Source: Spirosoma montaniterrae (GTDB lineage: Bacteria > Bacteroidota > Bacteroidia > Cytophagales > Spirosomataceae). Taken from it: DNA of 64,000 nt. Of this stretch, positions 566 to 49,290 are shown piece by piece. Numbering within the stretch: position 1 is the first letter of the stretch; each line of letters starts with the position of its first letter. Below the pieces are notes generated by a model. It did no database searches and was not told the origin of the DNA. It worked only from the letters and a program-made list of their open reading frames with translations. The translations under genes were made by a program, and so were the position numbers. The DNA is taken from the NCBI RefSeq assembly GCF_001988955.1, contig NZ_CP014263.1, positions 1,860,001 through 1,924,000 of the forward strand, given 5' to 3'.

Positions 566-660
566 ACCCCACCCCAACCCTCCCCGTTAGGGAGGGGCTT
601 ACTTCTAAAGAAGCTTACGCGAGTAAGTCCCTCCCTAACGGGGAGGGGTTGGGGTGGGGT
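566..660. repeat. Long palindrome, CCCCACCCCAACCCC family, between susD and lipoprotein gene
   Basis: Two arms of about 37 bp beginning ACCCCACCCCAACCC are inverted around a short AT-rich centre with AAGCTT. The element fills nearly all the space between the susD stop (662) and the next start (550). The same arms recur inside icmF at 20475-20564. As RNA it would form a very stable hairpin in the middle of this operon and could reduce readthrough or protect the 3' end of susD mRNA (inference). Confidence 0.9.
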
Positions 661-5753: not shown

Positions 5754-5787
5754 CTGAATAATAATATGAAATTGAATCAGGTATGAC

Positions 5788-5887
5788 GTATTGCTGACGC
5801 GAGTGAGACGCAAGGGGTTGCGTCTCTACAACGGGATGGTCACATGTAGAGACGCAACCCTTTGCGTCTCACTCGCGTCAGCAATAC
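5788..5887. repeat. Long palindrome, GTAGAGACGC family
   Basis: Arms of about 43 bp (GTATTGCTGACGCGAGTGAG onwards) pair with one mismatch across a 14-bp centre. Each arm holds a smaller palindrome (GAGACGCAA...TTGCGTCTC). It lies 41 bp after the stop of the sialidase-like gene. Pieces of the same family sit inside icmF at 19446-19567. Confidence 0.9.
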
Positions 5888-5928
5888 ATCAATGCAATGT
5901 CAAATTGGTATAAGTTACCCTTTGTAGT

Positions 5929-18923: not shown

Positions 18924-18953
18924 TTTGTAGTAAAGTTATGACGTGTACCTTTG
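18924..18953 (+). promoter_or_regulatory. Complete Bacteroidota promoter of icmF
   Basis: A -33 TTTG at 18924-18927 and a -7 TACCTTTG at 18946-18953 are separated by 18 bp, close to the consensus for the Bacteroidota primary sigma factor. Transcription would begin near 18960, which rules out the start at 18943 and supports the ATG at 18976. Confidence 0.7.
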
Positions 18954-18975
18954 CTTTCTGACTTTCTTCATCAAT

Positions 18976-21471
18976 ATGATTGCTCAACCCGCTAAACCCG
19001 AGTCGCTTTTGGCTCAACCTTTTCTACATAAAATCCGCATCGTTACGGCGGCTTCGCTCTTCGACGGCCACGATGCGGCCATCAATCTTATGCGTCGGCT
19101 GATGCAGGCGTCCGGGGCTGAAGTGATTCACCTCGGCCACAACCGTTCGGTAGCCGAAATTGTTGACTGCGCCATTCAGGAAGACGTACAGGGCATTGCC
19201 GTTACGAGCTATCAGGGCGGCCACCTCGAATTCTTCAAATACATGTACGACCTGTTGCACGAACGTGGCGCGGGTCATATCAAAATCTTCGGGGGCGGGG
19301 GCGGCACCATCCTCCCTTCCGAAATCAAAGAACTCCACGCCTATGGCATCGCCCGTATCTACAGCCCCGACGATGGCCGCGCCATGGGTCTGCAAGGCAT
19401 GATTGACGACCTGCTGCGCCAGTGCGATTTCGAATTACCGCCACCTGTAGAGACGCGACCCTTCGCGTCTCCTTCGCGTCAGCAACAACCATCCGGGAAA
19501 GAACCATCCGGGAATGAGACGCAACATCTATCCGGGGGGAATGAGACGCAACATCTTGCGTCTCTACACAATGACATCGCGCGGCTCATCACGACCGCCG
19601 AAAACCACCCCGACCAATTCAATCATTCCATCAGTCAATCAGTCAACAAATCCACGCCCGTTCTCGGCATTACCGGCACGGGGGGCGCGGGCAAATCGTC
19701 ATTAGTCGATGAATTGGTGCTGCGCTATCTGCGAACGTTTCCCGACAAAACGCTGGCGATTATTTCGGTCGATCCGTCGAAACGCAAAACGGGCGGTGCG
19801 CTGCTCGGCGACCGGATTCGGATGAATGCCATTCACAACCGCATCGGCGGCCCGGCCCGTGTGTACATGCGGTCGCTGGCAACGCGGCAGAGCAATCTGG
19901 CCCTGAGCCGCCACGTCCAGGACGCCATCGACGTGTGCAAAACCGCTGGTTTTGACCTGATTATCGTAGAAACATCGGGCATTGGGCAGTCGGACACCGA
20001 AATTACCGAACACGCCGACAAAACGTTGTACGTGATGACCGCCGAGTACGGCGCGGCTACGCAGTTGGAAAAAATCGACATGCTCGACTTTGCCGACGTC
20101 ATTGCCATCAACAAATTCGACAAACGCGGCTCACTCGACGCCCTGCGCGACGTCAGAAAACAATACCGGCGCAACCACAACCGCTGGGACACGCCCGACG
20201 ACGATCTGCCCATCATCGGCACCATTGCTTCGCAATTCAACGACGCAGGCATGAACGCGCTGTTTGCCCGACTGATGAGCGTATTTGGCACTGACGTACC
20301 GGCGATCAGTCTGTCTGCTATCGATAGCCGGGACGTCAGTGCCATTATCCCCCCCGACCGGACGCGCTATTTGGCTGAGATTGTGGAAGAAAGCCGCCGG
20401 TACGATCAGTTTGTGAACGAGCAAACGGCCATTGCCCGGCACTTGTATCAGTTGGATGGGGTGATGAAAATGCCCACCCCACCCCAACCCCTCCCCGTCA
20501 GGGAGGGACTAATCCATCCGGGTGCTGTTAGCCCCTCCCTGACGGGGAGGGGTTGGGGTGGGGTGGTTGATGAACTTCAGCAGCTTTACACCGACCTCGA
20601 CGCCCGGCTGCACCCCGACTCCCGCGCCCTGTTGCAGCAGTGGCCGCAGATGCAGCAACGATACACGGCTGACTATTATGAGTTTACGGTGCGCGGCAAG
20701 GTGATTCGGCAACCGCTCTATACCGAAACATTGTCGCACCTGAAAATACCGAAAGTGGCCTTGCCCAAATACAGCGACTGGGGCGACGTGCTGCGGTGGC
20801 TGCTGACCGAGAACGTGCCGGGTGAGTTTCCCTACGCGGCTGGCGTGTTCCCGCTCAAGCGCGAAGGCGAAGACCCCACGCGCATGTTTGCGGGCGAAGG
20901 TGGCCCCGAACGCACCAACCGGCGGTTTCATTACGTGGCAAAAGACATGCCCGCCAAACGGCTGTCGACGGCCTTCGATTCGGTTACACTCTATGGCGAA
21001 GACCCGGCCATGCGCCCCGATATTTTCGGCAAAATCGGCAACTCCGGCGTCAGCATCTGCACCCTCGACGATGCCAAGAAACTCTACTCCGGCTTCGACC
21101 TCTGCGACCCGGCTACGTCGGTATCCATGACCATCAACGGCCCCGCGCCGATGATTTTAGCCTTCTTCCTGAATGCCGCCATCGACCAGCAGTGTGAGAA
21201 ATGGCTACGCTCCCCCCTCACCCCCGGCCCTCTCCCAGAACGGGAGAGGGGAGCAGAGCTCCCGGTTTGTCTCCCCTCTCCCGTTCTGGGAGAGGGGCCG
21301 GGGGTGAGGGTACATCGCGTTACAACGGCCCCCTGCCCGATGGCAACAACGGCCTGGGTCTGCAACTGCTGGGCACTACGGGCGACAAGGTGCTGCCACG
21401 CGACGTGTATGAACAGATCAAAGCCGACACGCTACAGAAGGTGCGCGGCACGGTGCAGGCCGATATTCTGA
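18976..21471 (+). CDS. icmF: Fused acyl-CoA mutase IcmF, N-terminal part up to frameshift
   Basis: IcmF fuses a B12 domain, a G-protein chaperone and a substrate domain, and interconverts isobutyryl- and butyryl-CoA. Residues about 15-145 are the B12-binding Rossmann domain with cobalt ligand His32 in DGHDAA and the GGGGG loop. The chaperone carries a Walker [10 protein letters not shown] at about 234. The mutase barrel starts about residue 570. The promoter at 18924-18953 fixes the start. Three unrelated palindromes lie within: 19446-19567, 20475-20564 (both in frame) and 21211-21317. After 21210 this frame is no longer conserved and runs to a stop at 21471. Adding one C in the third palindrome rejoins it to 21201-22544, giving about 1189 residues against about 1090 usual, and the inserts explain the excess. 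Confidence 0.85.
19446..19567. repeat. GTAGAGACGC-family element inserted in icmF
   Basis: GTAGAGACGCGACCC at the left and TTGCGTCTCTACAC at the right flank a degenerate centre with ATCCGGGAA and GAATGAGACGCAACATC repeated. It falls in the linker between the B12 domain and the G-protein domain, keeps the frame and encodes about 40 polar residues (SGNETQHL is repeated). It is related to the intergenic palindrome at 5788-5887. Confidence 0.85.
20475..20564. repeat. CCCCACCCCAACCCC-family palindrome inserted in icmF
   Basis: Arms CACCCCACCCCAACCCCTCC onward and their inverse are nearly identical to those at 566-660, with a different centre. The insertion is in frame, encodes a Pro/Gly-rich segment ([12 protein letters not shown] ... 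SLTGRGWGG) and lies between the G-protein domain and the substrate domain. TGATGAA occurs on both sides (20462-20468 and 20568-20574), a possible target duplication. Confidence 0.9.
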
Positions 21472-22544
21472 AGGAAGATCAGGCGCAGAATACCTGCATT
21501 TTCTCGACTGAGTTTGCCCTCCGCATGATGGGCGACATTCAGCAATATTTCACCGACAACCGGGTGCAGAATTTTTACTCGGTGTCGATTTCGGGGTATC
21601 ACATTGCCGAAGCGGGCGCGAACCCGATTTCGCAGTTGGCTTTTACGCTTTCCAATGGCTTTACGTTCGTAGAATACTACCTGAGCCGGGGAATGCACAT
21701 CGATGATTTCGCGCCGAATCTGTCGTTCTTTTTCTCGAATGGCATGGACCCCGAATACACGGTGCTGGGCCGGGTGGCGCGTCGGATCTGGGCGAAGGCG
21801 ATGAAAAACAAATACCGGGCCAACGAGCGCAGTCAGAAGCTGAAGTATCACATCCAGACGTCGGGGCGGAGTTTGCACGCGCAGGAGATTGCCTTCAACG
21901 ATATTCGTACCACGTTGCAGGCCCTGCTGGCAATCTACGATAACACCAACTCGCTGCATACCAACGCCTACGACGAAGCTATTACGACGCCCACCGAAGA
22001 ATCGGTTCGGCGGGCGATGGCGATTCAGTTGATTATAAACCGCGAGTTTGGGCTGACCAAAAACGAAAACCCGCTGCAAGGCTCGTTTGTGGTTGAGGAA
22101 CTGACCGATCTGGTCGAAGAAGCTGTTTATCAGGAATTTCTGGCTCTCAACGAGCGGGGCGGTGTACTGGGCGCAATGGAACGGATGTACCAGCGCAGCA
22201 AAATTCAGGAAGAGTCGATGTATTACGAGACGCTGAAACACAACGGCGACCTGCCCATCGTGGGCGTCAACACCTTCCTCGACCCGAACGGTTCGCCCAC
22301 TATTGTTCCCGCCGAAGTCATTCGCAGCACCGACGACGAAAAACGGTATCAGGTCGAAAATTGCCGGGCTTTTCAGGAGCGTAATCGCGAAGCCGCAGCG
22401 ACGGCATTACATCAGTTGCAGGCAGCGGCACTGGCCGGAGGTAACATTTTTGAGAGCTTGATGGAAGCCGCTAAAGTGTGTTCGCTGGGGCAGATGAGCC
22501 ACGCGCTTTATGCCGTAGGCGGGCAGTACCGCCGGAATATGTAG
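21201..22544 (+). CDS. icmF: Fused acyl-CoA mutase IcmF, C-terminal part after frameshift
   Basis: The remainder of the mutase substrate domain. From about 21318 the sequence is strongly conserved ([85 protein letters not shown]), including the Tyr and His positions around the B12 face. It ends QYRRNM as in intact IcmF. The first 38 residues are palindrome-derived, so translation from 21201 is unlikely to be native; this part is best read as continuous with 18976-21210. If the frameshift is real, the barrel is split and the enzyme probably inactive. Confidence 0.8.
21211..21317. repeat. CTCACCCCCGGCCCCTCTCCC-type palindrome inserted in icmF with one-base deletion
   Basis: The left arm reads CCTCACCCCCGGCCCTCTCC while the complement of the right arm reads CCTCACCCCCGGCCCCTCTC: the left has GGCCCT where the right implies GGCCCCT. 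The insert is 107 bp as given and 108 bp (36 codons) with the missing C. With it the frame stays open and joins the conserved mutase sequence on both sides. Confidence 0.9.
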
Positions 22545-22547
22545 TAG

Positions 22548-23407
22548 CTACGTCCTTCGTAACGTCATCACATACTGACCATCGACCAGCAGCGTCAGGC
22601 GGTTTTGACTGACCCGAAATAGCGACACCTGCCGCAGCGCGTCTACGAAGCTGGTTTCAAACGGGTTCGCCGGGCGCGGGTTGGTTTTCGGGTCGATGGT
22701 CAGTTGGTCGGCGTTGGCGCGGATGTCGCCTTTGAGTTTGCTCCAGCCGGTTGAGCCGGTCAGCTTACCGGTTTTCAGGTCAAATTCCAGCGTGGGCAGC
22801 ATTTTGTCGCCGAATTGTTCGGGGCGAAGGCGTTGCCCGCGAAACGTTTCGAGTGTCCAGATGCCGTTGAGCCGGTGGCTGGCGTGCAGAAACGCCCCGC
22901 CCCCACATACTGCCGGGCGTTGGCTTCTACCCGAACGGTGTAGGCATAATCGCGTTTCGTCAGCGGGTCGCGGTAGGTTGTGGGTTCTATGGAAACAACT
23001 AATTTGCGTTTACCCGTTGAACTACGCTGGCTCACGTTTTTGCGCCGACTGGCCGACGCCAGCACCGGCTCTGCCTGCGCGTCGAGTAGCACGCCCATGC
23101 CCCGGCTGCTGGGTTTCGGCTTGGGCACAGGCACGAGCAGTTCGTAGCCATCGGACGCCTGAAACTGTATTTGTTTAGCGAAGTCAATATCGAGTTGCCA
23201 GGCCAGCGCACCCGTTTTGGCCGGGCTGCTGCCAACGGCTACAAAATCAATACCTTGCCGCCGTTTGTTGGCCCAGTCGTTGCTTAATACTGGCTGCTTT
23301 TCAGCCTGTTTCGGCGTTTTCGACAGCGGTTGAATCGCGCGGTGGCAGCTCAGGTTAAGCAGCACCAGTATCGGCAAGAGCCAGCCGTTGCGCCCCTGGA
23401 ATGTCAT
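22548..23407 (-). CDS. META-domain (HslJ-like) lipoprotein, frameshifted
   Basis: Two frames make one protein. 23407 down to about 22905 encodes a signal peptide with LLNLSC, then a domain (DFVAVGSSP...LAWQLDIDFAKQIQF) like the COG3650 lipoproteins. The conserved META domain (LNGIWTLETFRGQRL, then LEFDLKTGKLTGSTGWSKL and FVDALRQVSLF) continues in another frame from about 22900 to 22548. Adding one G to the G5 run at 22900-22904 (C5 on the plus strand) restores a 286-residue protein. META-domain proteins such as HslJ are linked to stress and novobiocin tolerance in E. coli. Either an assembly indel or a recent pseudogene. It is convergent with icmF, 3 bp apart. Confidence 0.75.
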
Positions 23408-27466: not shown

Positions 27467-28867
27467 TTGTCGATACCTATTACGTCGCCCGGATCACATG
27501 CATCCGGCCCACGGCTGTCCCGCTCCGATTTTGGCCCCGATTTTGTTTGGGGGACCGCCACAGCCGCCTACCAGATTGAAGGTGCCACCGACCGCGACGG
27601 ACGCGGGGCGTCAATCTGGGACACGTTCTGTAAACAGAAAGGCAAAATCAAAACCGGCGAACATGCCGATACTGCCTGCGAATTCTACGACCGCTACGAA
27701 TCCGACCTGCATCTGCACAAAGCACTCGGTTTCGAGAACTTTCGCTTCTCGATTTCGTGGTCGCGTGTGCTGCCCGACGGCCTGTCGCCCCTGCGCGGAG
27801 GGCGCATCAACGAAGCGGGGCTTGCTTTTTATAACCAACTGATCGACCACTGTTTATCCTTGGGAATCACGCCCTGGATTACGCTATACCACTGGGATTT
27901 GCCGCAGGCACTGGAAGACCGGGGCGGCTGGGCCAACCGCGAAATTGTGTACTGGTTTGCCGACTTTGCCGACCTCTGTACCCGCGCCTTTGGGCACAAG
28001 GTGAAGCACTGGATTATTCTGAACGAACCGCTGGCGTCGTCGGTGCTGGGCTATTTTACGGGTCAGCACGCCCCCGGTCGGCGCAGTTTTCGGAGTCTGT
28101 TACCAGTCATTCACCACACGGCACTGGCGCAGGCCGAGGGCGGACGGATGGTGCGGCAGAATATTCCTGACGCACAAATTGGCACCACCTTTTCGTGTTC
28201 GCCCGTGGAGCCGTTTTCCTCGTCAAAAGGCGACCGCGAGGCAGCCGCCCGCGTCGATGCGCTGCTCAACCGGCTGTACATCGAACCCGCACTGGGACTG
28301 GGCTACCCAACGCAGGAGTTACCCTTTCTGGCCGACATTCCCAAAAAAGTAGCCAAACCCGGCGATATGGAGCGGTTGGTGTTCAACTTTGATTTCATTG
28401 GTTTGCAACACTACTTCCGGGCCGTGGTCGAACAGTCGTATTTTATGCCTTACCTGTGGGCCAGGGAAGTTTCTCCGCTTCAGCGTCGGGTGCAAACCAT
28501 TACGGAGATGGGCTGGGAGGTGTATCCCGAAAGCATGTACCGCATTATTCAGCAGTTTTCGCAGTACGACGGCGTTCGGAATATTTACATCACCGAAAGT
28601 GGAGCCGCCTTCTACGACAGCGTTCAGCAAGGTATTGTCAACGACTCGGCCCGGCTCGATTATCACCAGAACTACCTGCAAAACGTGTTGCGGGCCAAAC
28701 AGGAAGGTTTACCCGTATCGGGCTATTTTGTCTGGACATTCATGGATAATTTTGAATGGGCCGAAGGCTACCGTCCCCGCTTCGGGCTGGTCTACGTCGA
28801 TTTCCGAACGCAGCAACGCATCGTCAAAGCATCGGGCCGCTGGTTTCAGGAATTGTTGATAGAATGA
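27467..28867 (+). CDS. GH1 beta-glucosidase
   Basis: A 466-residue family 1 glycosidase that releases glucose or related sugars from beta-glucosides. It has the N-terminal FVWGTATAAYQIEGA signature, the acid/base in ILNEP (Glu187) and the nucleophile in ITESG (Glu377; the usual form is ITENG). There is no signal peptide, so it acts in the cytoplasm. No ATG occurs in frame before the conserved domain; the best start is the TTG at 27467, just after an in-frame stop at 27446. The stop codon lies in the following TTGAATGA repeat, and the last residues (LLIE) run into it. Confidence 0.92.
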   Translation: MSIPITSPGSHASGPRLSRSDFGPDFVWGTATAAYQIEGATDRDGRGASIWDTFCKQKGKIKTGEHADTACEFYDRYESDLHLHKALGFENFRFSISWSRVLPDGLSPLRGGRINEAGLAFYNQLIDHCLSLGITPWITLYHWDLPQALEDRGGWANREIVYWFADFADLCTRAFGHKVKHWIILNEPLASSVLGYFTGQHAPGRRSFRSLLPVIHHTALAQAEGGRMVRQNIPDAQIGTTFSCSPVEPFSSSKGDREAAARVDALLNRLYIEPALGLGYPTQELPFLADIPKKVAKPGDMERLVFNFDFIGLQHYFRAVVEQSYFMPYLWAREVSPLQRRVQTITEMGWEVYPESMYRIIQQFSQYDGVRNIYITESGAAFYDSVQQGIVNDSARLDYHQNYLQNVLRAKQEGLPVSGYFVWTFMDNFEWAEGYRPRFGLVYVDFRTQQRIVKASGRWFQELLIE

Positions 28868-29008
28868 TTGAGTGGTTGAATGATTGAATGATGGAATGAT
28901 TGAATGGGGTGCAGAGGTAGTAGCCCTCATTCAATCATTCCATCATTCAATCATTCAACCACTCAATCACTCTATTATTCAATCATTCTATCATTCAACC
29001 ACTCAACC
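28863..29008. repeat. Long palindrome plus extra arm, TTGAATGA family
   Basis: The left arm has TGATTGAGTGGTTGAATGAT; the centre GGTGCAGAGGTAGTAGCC nearly matches that at 24503-24626; the right arm is followed by a further run of CAATCATTC words to 29008. It overlaps the glucosidase stop and ends 21 bp before the CoA-transferase ATG. Confidence 0.9.
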
Positions 29009-49193: not shown

Positions 49194-49290
49194 TAGTGAT
49201 GAGTGATGAACGATAAGTGATGAGTAGCTGACGCAACAAGCACTTATCACTTATCACTTATCACTCATCACTCATCACTCATCGTTCGTC
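49194..49290. repeat. Long palindrome, GATGAGTGAT family
   Basis: TTAGTGATGAGTGATGAACG and its inverse (CACTCATCACTCATCGTTCG) enclose AGCTGACGCAACAAGC. It fills the tandem gap between the malic enzyme stop (49189) and trpS start (49294). It shares words with 43262-43353. Confidence 0.92.

Follow-up and report, generated by a model that had tools for sequence, protein, structure and literature searches.

Palindromic repeats recur at three sites of icmF in Spirosoma montaniterrae and its relatives

The window, by which we mean the whole stretch of 64,000 nucleotides analysed here, comes from the genome of Spirosoma montaniterrae, a single contig of 5.80 Mb. It carries icmF on the forward strand at 18976-22544, split in the assembly into two ORFs (18943-21471 and 21201-22544). 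The IcmF domain order, a B12-binding domain followed by a MeaB-type G domain and the mutase domain, is confirmed and is spread over both ORFs. Compared with 32 relatives in which icmF is one long ORF, identity is 65-78% for the 5' part and 81-93% for the 3' part. The features of the gene are listed in Table 1.

Table 1. Parts of icmF and palindromic features within it, in window coordinates
Feature	Position	Strand	Description
icmF 5' part	18976..21210	+	Pfam B12-binding, MeaB and MM_CoA_mutase: B12-binding domain, MeaB-type G domain, linker region, start of mutase domain
Site 1	19447..19567	+	GTAG-type REP pair (GTAGAGACGC...GCGTCTCTAC) in the linker between B12 domain and G domain, in frame; profile match 19448-19567
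Weak stem	20286..20344	+	12-bp perfect arms; fourth variable stretch, between G domain and linker helices; unique in the genome
Site 2	20474..20566	+	CCCC-family palindrome in the linker region, in frame; predicted RNA hairpin -90 kcal/mol
icmF 3' part	21201..22544	+	Remaining mutase domain, its frame open as far as the usual C terminus; MM_CoA_mutase profile 151-510
Site 3	21216..21309	+	CTCA-family palindrome in a mutase-domain loop, where the frame changes; predicted RNA hairpin (21214-21311) -100 kcal/mol

The earlier note placed three palindromic elements in icmF, the first two of them in frame. We confirm both points, and each element is repeated elsewhere in the genome. In BLAST searches in which 40 of 324 candidates were scored, the CCCC element was found at no fewer than 29 other genomic places, the CTCA element at at least nine and the GTAG element at at least two. 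When an iterated profile was run across some 900 kb, the GTAG element matched at 34 places, half copies and the icmF copy counted. An ordinary variable linker without elements is rejected, as the segments are genome-wide repeats. The weak stem was considered as a fourth repeat element and likewise rejected, since no second copy was found in the genome. The length of 108 bp proposed for the third element does not hold; the icmF copy measures 94 bp and seven other copies 95-96 bp.

At site 1 the linker stretch is 171 nt long in S. montaniterrae compared with 51-114 nt in 34 relatives. The second half of this linker (19614-19647) has a weak match elsewhere in the genome (E 8e-4) and resembles the GAATGATTG repeat family; it is perhaps the relic of a further element. 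Part of the native linker seems to be lost, and thus the icmF elements are not pure insertions.

The only solved structure that we found among close relatives of the protein is that of Cupriavidus IcmF (4xc6 and other entries), and solved IcmF can be aligned with the protein of one relative, L045. The alignment to the Cupriavidus enzyme is interrupted at site 3, a position at which the latter has about nine residues. In a docking study, Cupriavidus IcmF was treated as two fragments, 22-442 with the B12 and G domains and 443-1093 with the substrate domain and the linker region (PMC10481361). As the latter fragment includes the linker region, we place site 2 within that region. A structure model of the L043 protein, made with 44 sequences, is of low confidence (mean pLDDT 61, pTM 0.43; 400 of 1155 residues below 50 pLDDT, including parts of the cores), and the sole use made of it is that residues 468-491 and 715-745 are predicted to be coil.

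The wider distribution of palindromes was scanned in a sample of 864 kb, consisting of the window and forty 20-kb stretches, with genes called by a simple hexamer method made for this analysis. The scan gave 136 palindromes, and the same sequence shuffled in 40-bp blocks gave none; chance would not be expected to produce palindromes of this strength. There are 106 intergenic palindromes, 21 across gene edges and nine within called genes, which cover 90% of the sample. The elements are thus short palindromic repeats with many, chiefly intergenic copies, as is typical of REPs and BIMEs. It should be noted that the scan overlooked the GTAG pair at site 1 of icmF, and similar pairs in relatives may therefore go unseen. 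Further palindromes in the window are found at 566-660, 5787-5891, 28859-28975 and 49195-49279; one is a CCCC copy, one a GTAG pair, and the remaining two belong to other families. That at 28859-28975 overlaps an ORF start.

The nine palindromes within genes comprise icmF sites 2 and 3, the unique weak icmF stem, one in the exonuclease VII gene (L101) that is probably upstream of the true start, and one in each of five other genes whose ORF is continuous. These five encode PurH, an MFS transporter, a PMT-type glycosyltransferase, an FG-GAP/ASPIC protein and an amine-oxidase-type FAD enzyme. In PurH of S. montaniterrae the element occupies the place of the native linker, and no element was found at this linker in 29 aligned relatives (36 genomes matched, 30 loci fetched). 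At the sampled density, three elements in one gene are expected by chance with a probability of about 3e-4 over all genes, a value that has to be read knowing that icmF was picked for having three.

We fetched 35 icmF regions from relatives, 32 from the same genus and three from the same order. In 32 of the 35, icmF is one ORF of more than 1100 aa; those left out are L042 and L053, which have several frame changes perhaps due to poor assemblies, and the partial L073. The alignment of the relatives has length-variable stretches at the insertion sites of S. montaniterrae icmF. The three sites, defined from S. montaniterrae icmF alone, make up 11.0% of the residues. Nine strong DNA stems were found in icmF of the 32 relatives, and eight lie within the three sites (P 1.7e-7, assuming independent stems, although nine are few and two species give two each). 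They belong to L062 at site 1, to L063, L046 and L043 at site 2, and to L052, L060, L043 and L063 at site 3; the ninth, a weak stem in L047, was counted outside the sites. Across seven thresholds P ranged from 1.5e-4 (4/4 stems) to 2e-8 (8/8), with 16/37 and 11/21 stems within the sites at the two lowest. In codon-shuffled genes, two stems were found at threshold 12 and none at 13 or 15. No strong stem was found at the three sites in 26 of the 32 relatives.

Because the inserts differ in sequence between species, we infer several independent insertions. Three of five tested inserts are clearly repeated in their own genomes, those of G022 (17 other places), G030 (8) and G010 (about 4), and the inserts of G020 and G017 have weak or partial matches elsewhere in theirs. 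The frame-shifted icmF of L042 carries CTCA elements at sites 2 and 3. As relatives too carry elements at the same sites, the proposal that the linkers of icmF tolerate them is supported, and far beyond the S. montaniterrae genome. The segments are not ordinary conserved sequence in the relatives, where they are absent, shortened or replaced by other repeats. The icmF of L063 also holds, near residue 420, a diverged copy (76%) of its site-3 insert (G017:C1:6584627-6584694); this part of the gene is a fourth variable stretch.

A search of the wider Bacteroidota used the best 80 loci, of which 68 had a usable long ORF and 12, one of them from S. terrae, were skipped. The 68 loci contain eight stems, two of them at site 2, each in a Spirosoma locus that the set of relatives had already included: L185 is the same as G010, and L119 is the same as G007, whose stem (score 13) fell outside the site in the count of 32 relatives. 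No further stem at the three sites was found among these 68 loci. The six others lie away from the sites (L121, L154, L174, L187, L190 and L193); the one in L154 is a run of N. Site 2 could be anchored in only 3 of the 68 loci, but judged by residue number it is not close to any of the six. The L193 stem is a strong palindrome in icmF of a Chitinophagaceae MAG, at about residue 410.

A GTAG-type peptide at site 1, in the same frame as in S. montaniterrae, is present in 6 of 92 extracted Spirosomaceae proteins and is perhaps shared by descent. Peptide signatures of elements, sought among 120 listed proteins, were found in 4/92 at site 1, 3/58 at site 2 and 14/88 at site 3, counts that are indicative as the pattern is over-inclusive. 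Two IcmF records, P0001 (748 aa) and P0030 (732 aa), end at site 3, through contig ends or frame changes.

Closely related pairs differ by whole or partial elements. L046 (taken as S. sordidisoli) and L047 (taken as S. lacussanchae), with about 94% DNA identity, have a site-2 element in common, which is full in L046 and lacks 66 bp, a multiple of three and in frame, in L047. Loss in L047 is the likelier direction, since L047 still has one arm together with the outer end of its partner. The chief difference between L043 and the protein P0077 (95% identity) is 26 extra residues at site 3 of L043, encoded by a CCCC-type element; P0077 is known from the protein alone. L042 and L043 have different site-3 elements in genes that are 89% identical over the best segment. 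This series of full, shortened and replaced elements suggests a route from selfish DNA to protein linker. As regards MITEs, which have terminal inverted repeats with a target-site duplication, long inverted arms were seen here, and no exact empty site was found at the DNA level, the L046/L047 pair representing a shortened element.

The three families had been described as unrelated. Their arms do differ, but the CCCC and CTCA profiles each match copies of the other family, with scores inflated by C-rich arms, and the loops of all three families share the core ACCATCCGG. This core is present once in the site-2 copy, twice in the site-1 copy and in part in the site-3 copy, and also in the CTCA copies L002, L003, L005, L006, L007 and L109. 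Among the 136 loops, CCATCCGG occurs in 12 against 0.25 expected and GCGTCAGC in 9 against 0.39 expected; the 12 loops with CCATCCGG are nine GTAG-family and three CCCC-family copies, and copies of one family inflate the excess.

We tentatively raise the possibility, itself rather doubtful, that the families are built of modules, the shared loop cores ACCATCCGG and GCGTCAGC being combined with exchangeable arms, and that linker evolution in Spirosoma IcmF is mainly driven by mobile palindromes. The loops would then have been built up by successive insertions, each new one overwriting what partial deletion had left of the one before. If arms are exchangeable in this way, one mobilising system may build or move palindromes with quite different arms, as the shared loop core suggests. 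The site-2 inserts of L042 and L043 look as if a single element had been changed by a GC-rich palindrome nested in it. That GC-rich sequence also forms the end of the site-3 insert of L042, and copies thus seem to exchange their ends.

The left arm of the site-3 element in S. montaniterrae is one base shorter than its right arm and than both arms of all seven copies examined (L002-L007 and L109). In all 33 relatives measured (L042 and L073 left out) the site-3 loop is a multiple of three nucleotides, 54-138 nt, and the break is thus either new or an error. We give about even chances to a sequencing or assembly error in this very stable GC-rich hairpin. The change sits in one arm, where the seven copies, out of at least nine others that exist, are one base longer, and one-base arm differences also occur in other copies (window 566-660, L006 and L109). 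Moreover, the 864 kb contain 10 frame-change candidates, some perhaps overlapping genes, of which two are in the window, 1.7 kb apart, one of them being site 3. A real loss of one base from a C run within the hairpin is, however, also a plausible mutation. The gene directly downstream of icmF on the negative strand (22548-23407) is apparently split by a frame change near 22900.

The frame change could also mark icmF as a decaying pseudogene in S. montaniterrae, in which insertions piled up under relaxed selection, and separate methylmalonyl-CoA mutase genes are located at the contig end. We find this unlikely, as a single break is seen in 3.6 kb, both halves of the gene are well conserved, and relatives with open icmF frames bear elements at the same sites.

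We consider it very probable that REP- or MITE-like elements insert at many places, that they are cleared from most coding DNA, and that three stretches of icmF, where length and sequence are almost free, let them survive. In brief, short palindromic repeats would insert across Spirosoma-type genomes, presumably by transposition and with the help of a mobilising enzyme. Copies that disrupt coding sequence would be lost, and in-frame copies would persist, nearly neutral, and be translated where length and sequence hardly matter. The tolerant stretches of icmF would be the linker between the B12 and G domains, a loop in the linker region and one loop of the mutase. Having three such stretches may be the reason why icmF was struck repeatedly, by different families in different species. 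The inserts would replace part of the native linker and then decay by in-frame deletion, and the site-3 copy that breaks the frame in S. montaniterrae would reflect a very recent mutation or a sequencing error in the hairpin.

The strong recurrence at the same three places could instead reflect target choice, with a transposase that prefers these icmF sites. The PurH linker, bearing an element in S. montaniterrae and empty in the 29 relatives, fits such a preference. However, the icmF sites are used by families with different arms, loops of other genes are struck too, and the per-site rates, 8 of 96 site-species for icmF vs 0 of 29 for PurH, are small numbers. We therefore regard targeting as improbable.

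It had further been proposed that selection acts on the elements to make them readable as stop-free spacers. Mean numbers of open frames, out of six, were compared between copies not inside genes and shuffles, in classes made from simple patterns (three places make up the CTCA class, and the stem at icmF site 3 was sorted into 'other'). The means were 1.25 against 2.52 shuffled for CCCC (8 copies), 2.00 against 3.08 for CTCA (2 copies), 1.75 against 2.41 for GTAAC (4 copies), 0.08 against 0.64 for GAATGATTG (12 copies) and 1.55 against 1.62 for other palindromes (87 copies). Only GTAG copies were slightly above their shuffles (2.00 against 1.51; 14 copies). As copies outside genes are generally not enriched in open frames, selection for readability is not supported, and a survival filter acting on in-frame insertions suffices. 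That the families evolved stop-free frames rich in Pro, Gly and Ser, making insertion into genes harmless, seems to us quite unlikely; copies within genes are indeed open and Pro/Gly-rich, but in five of the six classes the number of open frames is below or close to that of the shuffles, and a comparison by hand shows CCCC elements in different reading frames in S. montaniterrae and L043. It is barely credible that the hairpins are kept for ribosome pausing at domain borders as an aid to co-translational folding of IcmF: hairpins of -47, -90 and -100 kcal/mol are predicted in the RNA at or near such borders, but 26 of 32 relatives do without a strong stem there and in L047, whose element is 66 bp short, most of the hairpin is missing.

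The pattern in icmF is real and recurrent. Intragenic REPs are known as a kind of event, and here they take an unusually informative form. The palindromic elements of Rickettsia (RPE) are palindromes translated in frame within unrelated genes. Similarly, elements are read in frame in a conserved protein at sites 1 and 2 of S. montaniterrae and at the sites of the relatives, site 3 of S. montaniterrae being out of frame. The likeness to Rickettsia drawn in the earlier note is apt for the way of working, in a different phylum; it does not extend to the mostly intergenic location of the copies or the general lack of open-frame enrichment.

REPs tagged with GTAG or CGTC have been described as mostly intergenic palindromic repeats, a minority of which lie in ORFs and add residues; ORFs with two insertions are also reported, as are insertions at nearly the same site in recB of two Xanthomonas (BMC Genomics 2013, PMC3733652). 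Like those intragenic GTAG REPs, the site-1 element of icmF starts with GTAG, a tetranucleotide that is found at one end of this element only and is absent from the CCCC and CTCA elements. Unlike the cases in that paper, three sites of one metabolic gene are struck recurrently here, by several families, genus-wide and with decay intermediates. The word 'Spirosoma' is absent from the main text of that paper, and an open-library literature search gave no paper on palindromes inside Spirosoma icmF. What is new here is the recurrence of palindromes at the same three icmF sites across relatives. Nature has in effect run the same experiment several times, asking where a large multidomain enzyme can accept added sequence.

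The S. montaniterrae genome has three Y1_Tnp genes. One of these, the RAYT-like L041:1124-1933, has GTAACGCGGGTGG / GTAACGCGGGTGGAAACCCGC palindromes on both flanks, and a copy of this family is also found inside the FG-GAP/ASPIC gene (L105:15371-15431). No icmF element family was found within 1.5 kb on either side of the three Y1_Tnp genes, where other repeats are present; we therefore call the icmF elements REP-like and not RAYT-linked REPs. The genome thus resembles RAYT/REPtron systems in having Y1_Tnp genes, one of them flanked by palindromes, and differs in that the icmF families are not beside them, RAYT flanking being seen for the GTAAC family only. Y1_Tnp matches occur in 29 of 36 genomes of the genus.
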